From positions 62,001 through 126,000 of the forward strand of contig CAISET010000002.1 of the NCBI GenBank assembly GCA_903884505.1: DNA of 64,000 nucleotides. Reading direction: 5' to 3'. Shown here piece after piece: positions 24,569-34,872 of this stretch. Within the stretch, counting starts at the first letter, position 1, and every line of letters begins with the position of its first letter. The translations under genes were made by a program, and so were the position numbers. Origin of the DNA: an uncultured Microcaldota archaeon. Its GTDB lineage: Archaea; Micrarchaeota; Micrarchaeia; Burarchaeales; Fermentimicrarchaeaceae. The notes under the pieces were generated by a model. It was not told the origin of the DNA and did not search any database. It worked only from the letters and a program-made list of their open reading frames with translations.

Positions 24569-24675
24569 TTACACCACGTGCCTGATTACAGCACGCTGCT
24601 ATAAATTCATTTCTATGCTGCGGGGCTTGTGGGAACTGGGCGTTAATATTAAAAGGAAAACCGCCCTCGCCGAGA

Positions 24676-24769
24676 TTGACGGCTTCGCCGGCAAATTTTC
24701 ACCGCCGCGATTTGCGCCGAAGCGCAAATGCGGCGCCTTCGCCGAAGGCGAAGAGCGCAGGCGAATGCT
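24676..24769 (-). other. tRNA-Arg intron 2 (T-loop, about 59/60)
   Basis: 94 bases inside the T-loop. It contains the hairpins TTCGCC-TTC-GGCGAA and ATTTGCGC-TTCG-GCGCAAAT. The second is shared with the hairpin element at the right end of the window (about 63871-63897), 23 of 27 positions alike with differences only in the loop. Exact borders may shift by one base because of repeated A residues. Confidence 0.75.
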
Positions 24770-24790
24770 TTCGAACTCGGATTACCGGCT

Positions 24791-24853
24791 TTCGTCAGCC
24801 AGGGTTTTCTTCCGAACCCAGGGGCCTTTTCTTTTCCAAAAGAAAAGGGGCCT
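24791..24853 (-). other. tRNA-Arg intron 1 (position 37/38)
   Basis: 63 bases at the canonical anticodon-loop site. It contains a long near-perfect hairpin, CCCCTTTTCTTTT with AAGAAAAGG, and a second possible pairing GGGTT with AACCC. Confidence 0.8.
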
Positions 24854-24880
24854 TCGGAGGCCAGCGTCCTATCCATTAGA

Positions 24881-25522
24881 CTACGAGGGCTTCACGCGTT
24901 CTATGCACGGCTTTGGGATGTCTGCATTTGAAAGGCTGATGGTGAGCATGCGTTCGCCAACCAGCATGTCGGATTTGGCCCCGCTCTGCTTGCAATAGGC
25001 TTTCAGGAAATCCTCACCCTGGCCGGTCAGGGAAAACGAGGTGACCGACTCAACATCCCTGCTTTTTGAATAAAGGTCATGGAAGGAGCGGAGGAAGGAA
25101 CCGATGCCTTTGAACCTTCCCCCGGCGCGGGAGGAGTATGGGTCGAAGACGATTGTCGCCTCGTCAAAAACCATGCGCATCTTCTCCGCTTCCTTTAGGT
25201 GCTCCGGGGAGCGGTCTGAGATGTCCCAGGGGAGCGAGGTGCACGCCTCGGCACATTTCCTGCCGTCATCGTGGAAGACGTTCGTCCTGTCCGCACGCGC
25301 CGCTGGCGTGAGCTTCCCCCCTTCGGAGTGGAAAAGGTCAAGCTTCACCTCTTCGTGCATGCAGGAACCGGCTTTATAGGAGTACTTCCGTGCGAGCAGG
25401 ACGAACTCGTCTCCGGATGAGATGCGGAAGTGATAGCCGCCGGGCGAGAGCGCCTTTTTGAGGGCTTCGCTGAACTCGTATTTCTCGAGAGGCTCGGCAA
25501 CCGGCCTGTATTTCACTCTCAT
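24881..25522 (-). CDS. Orphan protein, 213 residues
   Basis: A soluble mixed alpha/beta protein that I do not recognise. It has three cysteines in the middle (GSCMHEE, KCAEAC) and a central segment RMVFDEATIVFDPYSSRAGG. The stop codon TAG lies within the tRNA-Arg gene behind it (positions 8-10 of the tRNA), so the two overlap by ten bases and may share a transcript. The ATG at 25522 is one base away from the srp54 stop, on the same strand. Confidence 0.65.
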   Translation of the reverse strand: MRVKYRPVAEPLEKYEFSEALKKALSPGGYHFRISSGDEFVLLARKYSYKAGSCMHEEVKLDLFHSEGGKLTPAARADRTNVFHDDGRKCAEACTSLPWDISDRSPEHLKEAEKMRMVFDEATIVFDPYSSRAGGRFKGIGSFLRSFHDLYSKSRDVESVTSFSLTGQGEDFLKAYCKQSGAKSDMLVGERMLTISLSNADIPKPCIERVKPS

Positions 25523-28766: not shown

Positions 28767-31700
28767 GTGAGCCCTACTGCTGAAGTGCAGAAGCCTGAGA
28801 AGAAAGAGGAGAAGAAAATCTCCGAAGGAGCCATCGGGATATTCGTGCTCGTCAAGCTCTACCTGGAACATGCCGGGTACGAGAAGGAGCGGATGAAGAA
28901 GGTCATCATTGCCCGCGCCAAGGAGCATAAGGATGACGTTAAAGAGGTCTGGGAAAACCCGGCGAAGTATGGCAAGGAGATGCCGACTGCCTTCCTCGAA
29001 GACCCTTTTGGGAAGGAATTTGACGCGCAGGTCAGGAGCGGCAATCCGTTCCCCGACACGGTTGAGGTGCAGCCTCCGAAAGCCGGCACGGCCAAAGTGC
29101 AGCATCCGAAAGATGAGCTGGATTTCGCCGCCATTTCCAGGAGGATAGAGGCCAGCGGGCTCGAATGGCTCAGAATGCAGGAGGATGAACGCCGTGAGCA
29201 AATCCTGTATGGCTGGAAGAGCCTGACACTCTCCGCTGCTGAGAGGCTGCTCCGCGATTTCAGGGTAGATTTAAACCAGAGGGGGTATATCCCGGCGCAC
29301 GAGTGGAAAGTCTATACGCAGATTAAGCATCTGAAAAAAGAGATGGAGAAGGAGACAGCGGCAGGCGGCCAGGAGACGAAGAGCGAAGGGGCGGCGAAGG
29401 TGGATTCTGCGGCGCTGAAAATCTTCGCGCTTGCCCGCATCTATTGCGAATGCCCCGATGACCGCAAGGAGCTGGAGAATGCAATCGTCGAGCTGGCGCA
29501 GAGATATCCGGGGGATGTCAGGATTGCTTGGACCCATGCGGGCAGATGGAAGACAGGGGTGTCCCCGAAATTCTTCACGACTGAGTTCGGGAAGGCATTC
29601 GACGCCGCCATGCGGGGCGCCGACCAGCTTACGAAGTGCGGGGAGGCGGGTTTCTTTGCGACCGCCTCCAAAAAAATCGGGGAAGGCGGGGTCGGGTGGT
29701 TCGAGCAGCAGTCGAAGGGGTACAAAAGGGCGATTTTGAGCTGCTGGGCCGAGCTGTCTGCCGGTGCGGTCGGCAGTTTCCTCAGCGAATTCGAGAAGGC
29801 AGCCGCGCAAGGGGCGCTCCCGGTATATTTCTACAGGGCGTATTCTGAGATGCGGCTGCGCAGGAAAAAATGGGAAGTTCCGCGGCCCGTGGAGACGAAG
29901 GAGCCCGAACCGAAGGGTATGGAAGTGATGACGGAAAAGAAGAACGAGGAAGCTGCGGGGAAGAAGGAAACGGAGCCGCTTATTGCCATGCCCATAGACC
30001 GCGAGAGACTCTTCCTGGAGATGGTTGCCGCAGGAAAGAAGCTGGAGGAGATTGAGTCGCGATTGCAGATGAATAAGGTGGAATTGGGGAAGTTTGCGCT
30101 TGATTTGATGATGAATGGGAAACTCCGCCCTGCAGAAGTTACGGAAAATGTGAAGGTAGGGAGGTCTCAGAGGCCGGTTGCTGGAAAAAATTTGAATGAA
30201 AAAACGCTGAAGGAGGCGCATGAAGCACTGGAGAAGCCGTACCGCAAGCCGACAATAAACGAGCTCATAGATGAAACAGGATGGAAGAGGAAAAAAGTTC
30301 TCGCAGTCAAATGCGCCCTCGGCCTGGAAACTTGCCATCCGCGCATCGCCGACGCGCGCGACAGGATAGTGGAGGCGATTGGGAAGAATGGCGGGAAGGT
30401 TCCGAACAAGGTAGTGTTGAGGAAGCTGACCGGCCTTTCGCGGTTCCATATAGACGAGCAGCTGCCGCACTTGATGAAAGCAGGTATATTCCCAGAAGCC
30501 AAGGCCATGAAGCCCGAATGGAAGACGACGGCGGTTACCGATAATCCTTACAAACTGGCTGCGAGGTTGATGGTATCGCAGCTCGCCCCTAACGAAAGCC
30601 GCTATCTCCTGCTCAAGCATCTGGCAGAAGGTGGAAAGAACAGGTACGAAATCGCGAAAAAGACGGGCGTCTCTTCTGGGTCATTGCACTACGAACTGAA
30701 AAACCTCAAGGATACGGGACTTGTCCTGCAGGACGGTGAAGGTTACGCGGTCACCAAACGGGGAAGAAAGGTGCTGAAGGCGACTGAGGCGATTTTCTTC
30801 TGGGGCCATCCGCCCTCGAGATTGGACAAGAAGAAGGAATGGGGCCTCACAAAAATATTCGGCAATGCGGCACACAGTGGCAACTGCGCCGCATTGCTGG
30901 ACCTTGCGGACATGCAGGAATCAGTTCCCGGAAGGGGATGGGTGACCCACGGGCAGAGTGAGGAGGCGGAGCTTTACCTGCATGACAGCGCGTCGTTTTA
31001 CAAGCTGGCAGGGATGGGAATCGTCGCGGAAGAGGACATCGGAAAGTCGGGGCGCTTCGCTTATGGTTTCAGCGAAGATTTTGCAAAGCTGAAACGGATT
31101 CCTTTCGGCGAGATCGCGCGGAAATGCCCGTTCAAACGGCATTACTCTTCGGAAGACAGGCAGACGGCAGACAAACTGCTCCAAAAGCATGATATCCCGC
31201 TTTCCGTGCGTGAAACCATTGACAACCCGTCCAAGCTGCAGGTCGGCTGGTGCATCGCAAGCGGAATATTCGCGCACAATGCAATTGCGAGAAAAACTGG
31301 GATGAGACGGACGGATGTGACGATGAATACCGGGATGCTCGAGGACGCGGGACATGTGCGCAAGAGACTGCCCGGAATCAGGATAAATGTGGAGGAGAAG
31401 CACGCAAGAATGCTGCTTGAATATTTGCGCGCGCTCGAAGGGATTGTCGCTGGCGAGCTGAAGGGGAGAAGGCTCGAGGTGAAGGTTCCCGAAAAGGGAG
31501 GGCGCGACAAGTTTGTGTCCCTCCCGCTGCCTCCGCCAGTAGAAGCGTCTGGTCGGAAGGCCTACGGGTACTGGACGGGGCCTGGGGGCAAGCGGAAATT
31601 CCTCAGGGAACTTGGCGAGACCATAGATGAGGAGGGAACTTCTTCCTACGAGACGATTGGCAAGGCGCGCCCAGACGTCCGCGGAGCATTCGAGCGCCAT

Positions 31701-33665
31701 AGAAGGGAATGGGGAATCAAAAACTGGAAGGATGCAGTCGTGAAGACCGGCCGCACGCATACCGTGAAATGGAAACTGACTAAGAAGGAATGCTTGAAAG
31801 AACTGAAGGCCGAGTCGCTTAAGGCGAAAAGCACGGCGTCGTGCGCGATGCCAAAATGGGTGCTGAGATATTTCTTCAATCACAAGAGGGAGTGGGGGTT
31901 CAAGGGATGGAAGGACGCGGTCAACGCATGCGGCATGAAGCACACTGTGAGGGAAGTAACGAAGAAGGATTGGGTCGCCGCAATGCGCAAGAATTACAGG
32001 GAAACGGGCCTCACCTCCTCCACTTCGGTCCCTTCGAAGCTGGTTGGCCAGTTCAAGGCGCACTGGAAGGAGTGGGGCCTTCCCGAGAAATGGAAAGAGG
32101 CAGTGCCCAGGATTGGTCTCCCGTATGTGGCCGGCTACGCGGTGCTGACCAAGGAGGAGTTCTTCGAAGGCCTTGGGGAATTCAGCAGGAAATACGGGAC
32201 GAACTCCCAAAGGGCCGTAGCGAAGAAGAAAAGATGGCGCTGGCTGCTGAGCGGGTTCGCGTACCATAAGGAGGAATGGGGGCTGAAGAGCTGGAAGGGC
32301 GCGCTTGACGAGGCGGGCATTGAACGGGTTTTGAAAGGCGGCAAATACGACGAGGAGAAATTCCTTAAGGAGCTGAAGGCTGCCTGCAAGAAACATAAGA
32401 CGACTTCCTCAACGATGATTAAGACGAAAACAAATCTTTGGGGAATCTTCACGCAACACAAGGAGAAGTGGGGGTACAAGGGAATTGATGACGCCCTGGA
32501 GAAGATAGGCCTTCAGGCAGTTGGGCGTGGCAAGCCGCGCACCAGGGCGCGCGAAAAAGCTGTCGGGAGAAAAGAGGCACTTGGCAGGAAGCCGAAAAAG
32601 CCGCCAGTTGGGGAACGGGGGAGCGAACTTGGCGGAGAGCCGGAGAAGCCTCCGGTGAAGAAGCTAGAGGAAACCGTTGACGGGAAGCCGAAGAAACCGC
32701 CGCTGAAGGAGATGGGGGGAGCGGTTGGTGAGGGGCCGAAGAAACCGCCAGTTGGGGAACAGGGGGAAGAGATCGGCGATGAGCCGAATAAGCCCCCTGT
32801 GAATGAATTGGGTAGAGAGATTGGCGGAGAACCAGCCCAGCCGCGCACATTTCTCATCGAAAGGGTCAGGAGGGAAGCGAAGGATGACGTTGATTTCTTC
32901 ATCAGGCTTGCGAAGCAGGCTAATGCGATGCAGCTCAGCAAGATGGAGATGGAGGATGCAGTTGCGCTCGTCGCCGGGATGGATGAAAAAACAAAGCGCA
33001 AGCTGATGCAGGAGGCACCTGACGCGTACTCGCGGCTCATCCTGCTTGCGCCCGGCGTGAAGAAGCCGGCGCCAGAACCTCCACCCCCGCCTCCGCCCAA
33101 GCCAATCCCGGTGGAGATTCCCGTTGCGTTAACCAGAAAAGTCAGTGCGAAAACTCAGGAGAAGGTTGATGAGTTCAAGGCACTTGCTGTGCGGTTCGGG
33201 GAAATTGAATGGGAGAAGAAGGCGCTCATCCAAAACGGGAAGGTGGACCAGGATACGAATGACGCGCTGGTACTCCTTGAGGTGGAGAAGGAGCGGGCAA
33301 TAAAGCAGATAAAGAATATGGACTCCGACACGAACGATGCGCTTGCGCGCCAGGCAGTGCGTGTGCACATGCAGCTTATCATGTATGCGGAGAACTGGGA
33401 AGGGAAGAAGAAAGAGAGGTCTGAAACTGCCAGGAAAGAAGCGCGGGAGATGCTCAGGGCAGGCGGGCAGGAAAAGAAAACGCTCTTCAGGTATATGGGC
33501 ACGCTGGAGGAGTCGGGCTTCACATTCGCCGGAAACAATCTCCGCTTCATCGAGAAGGAGCAGCCTGAGGACGCGAAGCTCATCGCGCAGGCCCTGCGCG
33601 TCTTCAAGCTGGATTACACAAACCTTGTCGAAGAGTTCAGGAACTGGAAGAGGCATAACGCATAG
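28767..33665 (+). CDS. Giant modular orphan protein (1632 residues)
   Basis: Visible parts in order: two related helical units (about residues 18-195 and 212-370; each has a KxFxxDPF/TEFGKxFDA segment), a domain shared with the preceding gene (about 490-590), a winged-helix-like unit (RYEIAKKTGVSSGSLHYELKNL, about 627-650), a long unassigned middle, five units of 50-60 residues (about 934-1250) with the core HKxEWGxKxWKDA, a Lys/Pro linker with five copies of a KKPPV-x-E-x-G pattern (about 1265-1365), a run of prolines, and a coiled-coil-rich C-terminus. The five units resemble the homing-endonuclease-associated HNH repeat, a DNA-binding module, but I see no nuclease motif. A large DNA-binding scaffold is the best guess. 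Confidence 0.85.
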   Translation: MSPTAEVQKPEKKEEKKISEGAIGIFVLVKLYLEHAGYEKERMKKVIIARAKEHKDDVKEVWENPAKYGKEMPTAFLEDPFGKEFDAQVRSGNPFPDTVEVQPPKAGTAKVQHPKDELDFAAISRRIEASGLEWLRMQEDERREQILYGWKSLTLSAAERLLRDFRVDLNQRGYIPAHEWKVYTQIKHLKKEMEKETAAGGQETKSEGAAKVDSAALKIFALARIYCECPDDRKELENAIVELAQRYPGDVRIAWTHAGRWKTGVSPKFFTTEFGKAFDAAMRGADQLTKCGEAGFFATASKKIGEGGVGWFEQQSKGYKRAILSCWAELSAGAVGSFLSEFEKAAAQGALPVYFYRAYSEMRLRRKKWEVPRPVETKEPEPKGMEVMTEKKNEEAAGKKETEPLIAMPIDRERLFLEMVAAGKKLEEIESRLQMNKVELGKFALDLMMNGKLRPAEVTENVKVGRSQRPVAGKNLNEKTLKEAHEALEKPYRKPTINELIDETGWKRKKVLAVKCALGLETCHPRIADARDRIVEAIGKNGGKVPNKVVLRKLTGLSRFHIDEQLPHLMKAGIFPEAKAMKPEWKTTAVTDNPYKLAARLMVSQLAPNESRYLLLKHLAEGGKNRYEIAKKTGVSSGSLHYELKNLKDTGLVLQDGEGYAVTKRGRKVLKATEAIFFWGHPPSRLDKKKEWGLTKIFGNAAHSGNCAALLDLADMQESVPGRGWVTHGQSEEAELYLHDSASFYKLAGMGIVAEEDIGKSGRFAYGFSEDFAKLKRIPFGEIARKCPFKRHYSSEDRQTADKLLQKHDIPLSVRETIDNPSKLQVGWCIASGIFAHNAIARKTGMRRTDVTMNTGMLEDAGHVRKRLPGIRINVEEKHARMLLEYLRALEGIVAGELKGRRLEVKVPEKGGRDKFVSLPLPPPVEASGRKAYGYWTGPGGKRKFLRELGETIDEEGTSSYETIGKARPDVRGAFERHRREWGIKNWKDAVVKTGRTHTVKWKLTKKECLKELKAESLKAKSTASCAMPKWVLRYFFNHKREWGFKGWKDAVNACGMKHTVREVTKKDWVAAMRKNYRETGLTSSTSVPSKLVGQFKAHWKEWGLPEKWKEAVPRIGLPYVAGYAVLTKEEFFEGLGEFSRKYGTNSQRAVAKKKRWRWLLSGFAYHKEEWGLKSWKGALDEAGIERVLKGGKYDEEKFLKELKAACKKHKTTSSTMIKTKTNLWGIFTQHKEKWGYKGIDDALEKIGLQAVGRGKPRTRAREKAVGRKEALGRKPKKPPVGERGSELGGEPEKPPVKKLEETVDGKPKKPPLKEMGGAVGEGPKKPPVGEQGEEIGDEPNKPPVNELGREIGGEPAQPRTFLIERVRREAKDDVDFFIRLAKQANAMQLSKMEMEDAVALVAGMDEKTKRKLMQEAPDAYSRLILLAPGVKKPAPEPPPPPPPKPIPVEIPVALTRKVSAKTQEKVDEFKALAVRFGEIEWEKKALIQNGKVDQDTNDALVLLEVEKERAIKQIKNMDSDTNDALARQAVRVHMQLIMYAENWEGKKKERSETARKEAREMLRAGGQEKKTLFRYMGTLEESGFTFAGNNLRFIEKEQPEDAKLIAQALRVFKLDYTNLVEEFRNWKRHNA
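32580..32850 (+). repeat. In-frame tandem repeat coding Lys-Pro linker
   Basis: About five degenerate units of 48-54 bases encode GEPxKPPVxExGxExGG-like segments in the large orphan protein. Units have diverged at third positions and by small length changes. They probably form a flexible charged spacer. Confidence 0.65.
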
Positions 33666-34308: not shown

Positions 34309-34412
34309 TCCATCACCAGCTAAGCTTTCATCGCAGATATTAAAAATGGTGCATGAGAAAGGATAGCCCTGTCGGGCCCGTAGCTCAGCCTGGTCAGAGC
34401 GGCGGTCTTATA

Positions 34413-34463
34413 TGACGCCGTGCGGGACAAGATGAAATCCGCACGGATTAGGCGCTCTGGGAG
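34413..34463 (+). other. tRNA-Ile intron 1 (position 37/38)
   Basis: 51 bases at the canonical anticodon-loop site. It holds a strong pairing GTGCGG with CCGCAC, which brings the two splice sites together. Confidence 0.8.
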
Positions 34464-34485
34464 AGCCGTAGGTCTGGAGTTCAAA

Positions 34486-34528
34486 CACGGATTCGCTGGC
34501 GCGAATGCGCTTTCGACTCCGTCGAAAG
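34486..34528 (+). other. tRNA-Ile intron 2 (T-loop, 59/60)
   Basis: 43 bases in the T-loop, at the same position as in tRNA-Arg. It consists mainly of two perfect hairpins, ATTCGC-TGGC-GCGAAT (34491-34506) and CTTTCGAC-TCC-GTCGAAAG (34510-34528); the second ends exactly at the 3' splice site. Confidence 0.8.
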
Positions 34529-34551
34529 TCTCCACGGGCCCATTTTTGCTT

Positions 34552-34872
34552 ATGCGGATTGACAGAAGGAAGCCGGAGCCGCTTTTGCAGATTGTCAACG
34601 AGCGGATTGCCATCCTGCTCAGCCTGGCGGAGAAGAACGCGAAGAGCCGCCCGGAGAGGAGCAAGCGCTACGTCAGATTGGCGAGGAGGCTTGCGACCAG
34701 GTACAGGGTGAAGCTCGGGAAATTGAAGTGGAAGTTCTGCAGGGAGTGCAGCGCTTTCTGGGTGCCGGGCTTCAACGTGAAGGTGAGGATGAGGCCGAGG
34801 GAGAAGAGGGTCGTTTACACCTGCGAATGCGGTGCTGAGAGGAGCGCTATTTACGCGAAGAGGAAAAGCTAA
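34552..34872 (+). CDS. rnp4: RNase P protein component 4 (Rpp21/Rpr2)
   Basis: From the ATG at 34552 the protein has 106 residues. The basic helical N-terminus (KSRPERSKRYVRLARRLATRY) and the zinc ribbon CRECSAFWVPG...CECG are typical of Rpp21. It is part of archaeal RNase P, which trims the 5' leader of pre-tRNA. It starts ten bases after the 3' end of tRNA-Ile and both may come from one transcript. The frame is open upstream through the tRNA, but that stretch is RNA gene. Confidence 0.93.
   Translation: MRIDRRKPEPLLQIVNERIAILLSLAEKNAKSRPERSKRYVRLARRLATRYRVKLGKLKWKFCRECSAFWVPGFNVKVRMRPREKRVVYTCECGAERSAIYAKRKS

Follow-up and report, generated by a model that had tools for sequence, protein, structure and literature searches.

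Micrarchaeota very probably read the isoleucine codon AUA with a tRNA whose UAU anticodon is encoded in the genome, TiaS having been abandoned, and cut two BHB introns, an old one at 37/38 and a young, portable one in the T-loop, from its precursor with an epsilon-2 endonuclease. The usual archaeal reader of AUA is tRNA-Ile2, in which TiaS converts the CAU anticodon to agmatidine-AU, and it is this tRNA-Ile2(CAU)/TiaS arrangement that the Micrarchaeota would have given up. Both introns would be removed by the ARMAN-type enzyme. The 37/38 intron appears to have been kept across most of the phylum, whereas the younger T-loop intron would have a 3' end complementary to bases 54-57 of the T-loop, which are invariant, and this pairing would let the same intron type occupy site 59/60 of almost any tRNA. 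The proposal is drawn from the DNA itself, namely from the UAU anticodon, the BHB motifs predicted at both introns, an empty insertion site in a relative, the absence of TiaS, the large number of T-loop introns and the type of the endonuclease. An intron-bearing tRNA-Ile(UAU) is already known in ARMAN-2 (PMC12397907), as is the use of UAU for agmatidine-CAU in Nanoarchaeum and Korarchaeum. What is new is the phylum-wide scale of UAU decoding and TiaS loss, which turns 'life without agmatidine' from a trait of two archaea into one of a phylum, and a correlation between Elp3 and the 37/38 intron.

The gene lies at 34374..34542 (+) of the window, the whole 64,000-nucleotide stretch of DNA that was analysed, which comes from a genome of 1.51 Mb in 37 contigs. 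The sequence-only reading had placed here a UAU tRNA-Ile with a T-loop intron, and direct reading agrees with it in letters and coordinates; the T-loop intron is borne out, but a second intron, in the anticodon loop of the same tRNA, had gone unmentioned. The gene is also found by an intron-aware scan, its mature form folds into a cloverleaf, and BLAST of the mature form matches relatives. A syntenic gene is present at locus L034 of G003, an uncultured Candidatus Micrarchaeota MAG that belongs to another genus of the host's family and to whose FtsY that of the host genome is closest (63%). Exon 1 (34374..34412, +; positions 1-37, anticodon at 34-36) is identical over all 39 nt to this syntenic gene. 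It is followed by intron 1 (34413..34463, +), 51 nt at the canonical 37/38 site, whose boundaries are set by the anticodon stem and the BHB motif and whose architecture is shared by relatives. Exon 2 (34464..34485, +; positions 38-59) is defined by the L034 comparison and the cloverleaf fold. Intron 2 (34486..34528, +) comprises 43 nt at T-loop site 59/60 and is delimited by the exact empty site in L034, the complementarity of its 3' end to T54-57 and a constrained fold. Exon 3 (34529..34542, +; positions 60-73) rests on direct reading and the cloverleaf. In the spliced 75-mer the anticodon stem is GCGGU/GCCGU and the loop CU-UAU-AA corresponds to C32 U33 U34 A35 U36 A37 A38; the anticodon is therefore UAU. 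An alternative anticodon produced by shifted splicing was considered and proved inconsistent between families. Neither ARAGORN nor Rfam at its gathering score called any tRNA in the window, because introns interrupt the tRNA genes, and relaxing the ARAGORN thresholds gave hundreds of false calls.

Codon AUA is in normal use: of the 1046 Ile codons counted in ORFs of the window that were picked greedily by length, 306 are AUA, and a reader for it is therefore needed. TiaS was searched as domain PF08489 with a cut-off of 21 bits. The domain was not found in the host genome, in any of 60 relatives, 41 of which have a completeness of 90% or more, or, above the cut-off, in any of 245 genomes of the phylum (96 of high quality); one partial match of 15.6 bits fell short of the cut-off, and all four archaeal controls scored in the same search. 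The inventories of CAU tRNAs agree with this. Two relatives in three contigs each, G023 and G051 (97% and 95% complete), have 45 tRNA matches apiece, nearly all of them decoded; CAU was found there in the initiator and elongator tRNA-Met and in no third tRNA, and both genomes carry Ile-UAU and Ile-GAU besides. Among the 31 tRNA matches of the host genome, an incomplete list, CAU likewise occurs only in iMet and eMet, and a pattern search for a hidden CAU tRNA with an intact 3' half gave at most one initiator-type match per genome among the matches listed. The two absences predicted from the window alone, of tiaS and of a CAU tRNA-Ile, were thus both encountered, in the second case across the host genome, the two large inventories and the pattern search. 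The UAU-Ile gene itself was read in 51 of the 60 relatives.

It might be argued that there is a CAU tRNA-Ile after all, served by a TiaS that has diverged or by an enzyme like TilS, and that the UAU tRNA is redundant or a pseudogene. The tRNA list of the host genome is incomplete and could conceal a heavily interrupted CAU-Ile gene; against this stand the 0/245 score for TiaS, the want of a third CAU tRNA in two near-complete inventories, and the conservation of the UAU tRNA, whose stem changes are compensatory, across 51 genomes. The idea is largely refuted and we consider it highly improbable. Under direct UAU decoding, we infer that the UAU tRNA accepts Ile and that it would read AUA without reading AUG.

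Among 167 archaeal genomes, two were reported to have a UAU anticodon (PMC6000648); in these species, Nanoarchaeum equitans and Korarchaeum cryptofilum, it has been explained as replacing Ile2 (PMC8450103). The tRNA described here resembles their tRNA-Ile3(UAU) in standing in for tRNA-Ile2(CAU), and the gene of K. cryptofilum is also intron-bearing (PMC6000648). Unlike those cases, which are two species among 167 or 217 genomes, that of the Micrarchaeota spans a phylum and adds T-loop introns and a conserved 37/38 intron tied to Elp3. The suggestion of a lineage-specific system is accordingly supported, with the correction that the trait is not confined to this genome; and UAU decoding and T-loop introns, which had been treated together, are separate matters, since many relatives have the UAU tRNA and lack the T-loop intron.

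Both introns have recognizable BHB motifs. That of intron 1 has a central helix CUUA/UGGG with bulges UA^U and AG^A, and in most genomes the two 3-nt bulges and all four base pairs (CUUA/URRG) are present at the 37/38 splice sites, with compensatory changes in the anticodon stem. Intron 2, which parts A59 from U60, has the central helix UUC(A)/(C)GAA, bulges AA^C and AG^U and an inner helix ACGGA/UCCGU; three of the four central pairs form, the remaining one being an A.C at position 57. Its constrained BHB fold has an energy of -49.6 kcal/mol, compared with -53.3 kcal/mol for the minimum, and an 8-bp hairpin within the intron, which speaks against the BHB, competes by about 4 kcal/mol. At L034 the T-loop reads TTCAAATCTCC with nothing inserted, and exon 1, exon 2 and the 37/38 intron (about 92% by eye) are shared with the window gene, so that gain or loss of the T-loop insert was exact to the base. 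Given this empty site, the insert is evidently not a product of chance, and the site lends indirect support to its probable excision with ligation of the exons. Both introns of the tRNA are presumably excised in the cell.

T-loop introns are widespread in this genome. The claim that they might be a genome-wide feature, based on two of two tRNAs, set the number too low: at least six tRNAs carry them, namely Ile-UAU, Arg-CCG, Arg-UCG (L024), Ala-UGC (L018), Gly-GCC (L022) and Glu-UUC (L025). They are present in tRNA-Ile(UAU) of at least 9 relatives and elsewhere in Lys, Arg and His tRNAs, so the proposed list of tRNAs with such inserts is a long one. The second example in the window, tRNA-Arg(CCG) at 24662..24890 (-), was recovered by the intron-aware scan; it is interrupted by an intron in the anticodon region and by a T-loop insert of 94 nt (24676..24769, -). 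The boundary of this insert slides over AA, from 57/58 to 59/60, and its motif is a relaxed one, with 2/4 central pairs at the BHB register.

A BHB at 59/60 requires T54-57 to pair with the four bases that precede the last two of the intron. Among 21 T-loop introns full 4/4 pairing at this register was found in 10, against 0.4 in shuffles; overall 64 of 84 positions were paired where 32.6 were expected, and none of 5000 shuffles reached 64. The pairing peaks solely at the predicted register and at no other, although about half of the introns (those of G012, G015, G059 and G013 and the host Arg-CCG) have an imperfect or absent central helix. These data bear on the possibility that the T-loop inserts are mobile-element insertions that disable the tRNA. 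The variability of the inserts and the duplications of tRNA 3' ends downstream in some relatives would fit such insertions, but the flanking tRNA halves are intact, no second copy was seen, and the 3' ends of the inserts fit the BHB register far above chance; we give this possibility very little credence.

Nearly all tRNAs have UUCR at T54-57, so that any of them should be able to splice out an intron with the 3' end YGAANN, and introns of this kind are thus probably portable between tRNAs. A splice motif built on bases that are near-universal in tRNAs suggests why unrelated tRNAs host introns at one site. Four T-loop introns (host Ile, host Arg-UCG, Ile of G002 and Arg of G011) resemble one another with z of 3.7-6.6 against mononucleotide shuffles. 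This fits movement between tRNAs, the case being a modest one as the introns are short and hairpin-rich, and we infer that T-loop introns do move from one tRNA to another. Similar behaviour is known in Thermoproteales, where BHB introns occur at many positions, similar introns are shared by different tRNAs and introns have transposed (PMC4033280, PMC4090602). These differ in phylum and in endonuclease type, and the set seen here is one of T-loop introns in tRNA-Ile and tRNA-Arg whose 3' ends match UUCR.

The enzyme expected to act on these introns is a three-unit fused endonuclease of 392 aa, encoded in the host genome, with domains PF01974 and PF02778. It matches PDB 4fz2 from ARMAN-2 over its full length (residues 6-392, E=4.5e-141) and is, as judged from this match, of the epsilon-2 (ARMAN-2) type. 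ARMAN-2 (Micrarchaeum acidiphilum) belongs to the same phylum, has the same enzyme type, and its BHB intron-bearing pre-tRNA-Ile(UAU) has served as a substrate (PMC12397907). In that work the precursor is treated as a splicing substrate, and we did not find TiaS loss, Elp3 or T-loop introns discussed there.

A conserved 5' block, YGRCnCGYUCURRYAYA, marks the 37/38 intron of tRNA-Ile(UAU) in families f1, f2, f4, f6-f8, f11, f17, f18 and f20. The block partly resembles the anticodon loop UCUUAUA and has been assigned no structure. A box C/D or H/ACA guide was considered for intron 1: no guide complementarity was seen by eye, the ACA-like motif YUCURRYACA, though shared by many families, is not kept in f19, and the letters resembling a C box in the window gene's intron are disrupted in the sister gene.

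The presence of this intron follows that of Elp3. Searched as TIGR01211, Elp3 was found in 47 of the 60 relatives. A 37/38 intron starting with YGRC is present in each of the 39 Elp3-bearing genomes in which the gene could be read (38 parsed; G045, with TGGC, by eye), a count that leaves aside G050, whose gene is cut by a contig end after TATATG, and in none of the 11 Elp3-lacking genomes with a readable gene (7 are intronless and 4 have short, unrelated A-type introns). The correlation suggests that the intron might control modification of U34, and may rest on a single clade. The UAU anticodon is thereby linked to an intron whose occurrence goes with that of an enzyme modifying U34, and an old question becomes testable, namely how an unmodified or differently modified UAU anticodon escapes the reading of AUG.

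One possibility, which we put forward tentatively and think less likely than not, is that the 37/38 intron shields U34 from the 5-carbon side chain added by Elp3, or sets the time of a different change at U34, for example to pseudouridine, by letting another enzyme act first, and so prevents reading of AUG; the intron would have disappeared after the loss of Elp3. Such a role would add to the explanation given above and is not its alternative; if true, the intron would be dispensable only where Elp3 has been lost. Besides the contrast of 39/39 with 0/11, such shielding is favoured by the fact that other tRNAs of Elp3-bearing genomes are often intronless, and that G051, which lacks Elp3, still keeps introns in other tRNAs. 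A U34-mutant haloarchaeal tRNA-Ile (UAU) with cnm5U34 binds AUG (PMC7694415). The intron of yeast tRNA-Ile(UAU) prevents Elp-dependent formation of ncm5U34 and permits Psi34/36 (PMC11408192); shielding here would make the archaeal intron a counterpart of the yeast one that does without Pus1. Yeast and Cyanidioschyzon merolae both have an intron-bearing tRNA-Ile(UAU), with control of U34 modification by the intron in yeast (PMC9602550, PMC11408192); that of C. merolae has introns in its D, anticodon and T arms (PMC9602550), with the T-arm intron at 53/54, not 59/60. Both are eukaryotes and Pus1-dependent, whereas the TruA/Pus1 family (PF01416) was found in none of the 60 Micrarchaeota relatives searched, 12 controls being positive, and a yeast-like Pus1 step is therefore unlikely. 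Of the features of yeast-type intron-controlled U34 modification, the co-occurrence of Elp3 and intron is thus present, as a correlation over few independent events, and TruA/Pus1 is absent. Elp3 could, moreover, act after splicing unless U34 had already been changed, and the readable Elp3-lacking genomes all fall in f9 and f13 and may represent one or two events.

The same distribution might result from shared ancestry, a reduced clade having lost Elp3 and the introns independently, with the intron as neutral baggage tolerated by a broad endonuclease. We think this rather more likely than not: Elp3 is lacking only in f9 and f13, plus one 64%-complete genome (G034), the length of the intron outside its 5' block varies freely, and T-loop introns have been gained or lost between sister genera. 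It is less easily reconciled with retention of the intron in 39/39 Elp3-bearing genomes of about 17 families in which other tRNAs are often intronless.

Several further observations concern the tRNA genes and their surroundings. tRNA-Ile(UAU) adjoins a gene for the RNase P Rpr2/Rpp21 subunit (34552..34872, +; PF04032, E=5.1e-15), and upstream of it is an ORF of 1632 aa with a KKPP-rich tail (28767-33665). Introns of elongator tRNA-Met contain the C/D-box-like motifs TGATGA and CTGA in the host (L026), G023 (L203) and G051 (L225); such motifs have been published for eMet of Nanoarchaeum (PMC3491384). A scan of 187 tRNA 3' ends showed 8 that recur as a 13-17-nt copy 81-211 nt downstream (L066, L068, L073, L128, L134, L314 and L315 in relatives, L050 in Woesearchaeota). 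The spacing equals the size range of T-loop introns, and the copies may have been left by small elements that integrated at the ends of tRNAs, or may be where T-loop introns come from. Finally, the repeat TAAAAGCGYYARCGGAAA, mostly after a CCCTTTTC..hairpin, is found at 39 places in the host genome (control 1). It sits inside many tRNA introns and directly after protein genes (for example L029, L012, L015, L016, L017, L021 and L027; outside tRNAs L262, L254 and L268), and resembles either a small dispersed element or a family of BHB introns that transposes.
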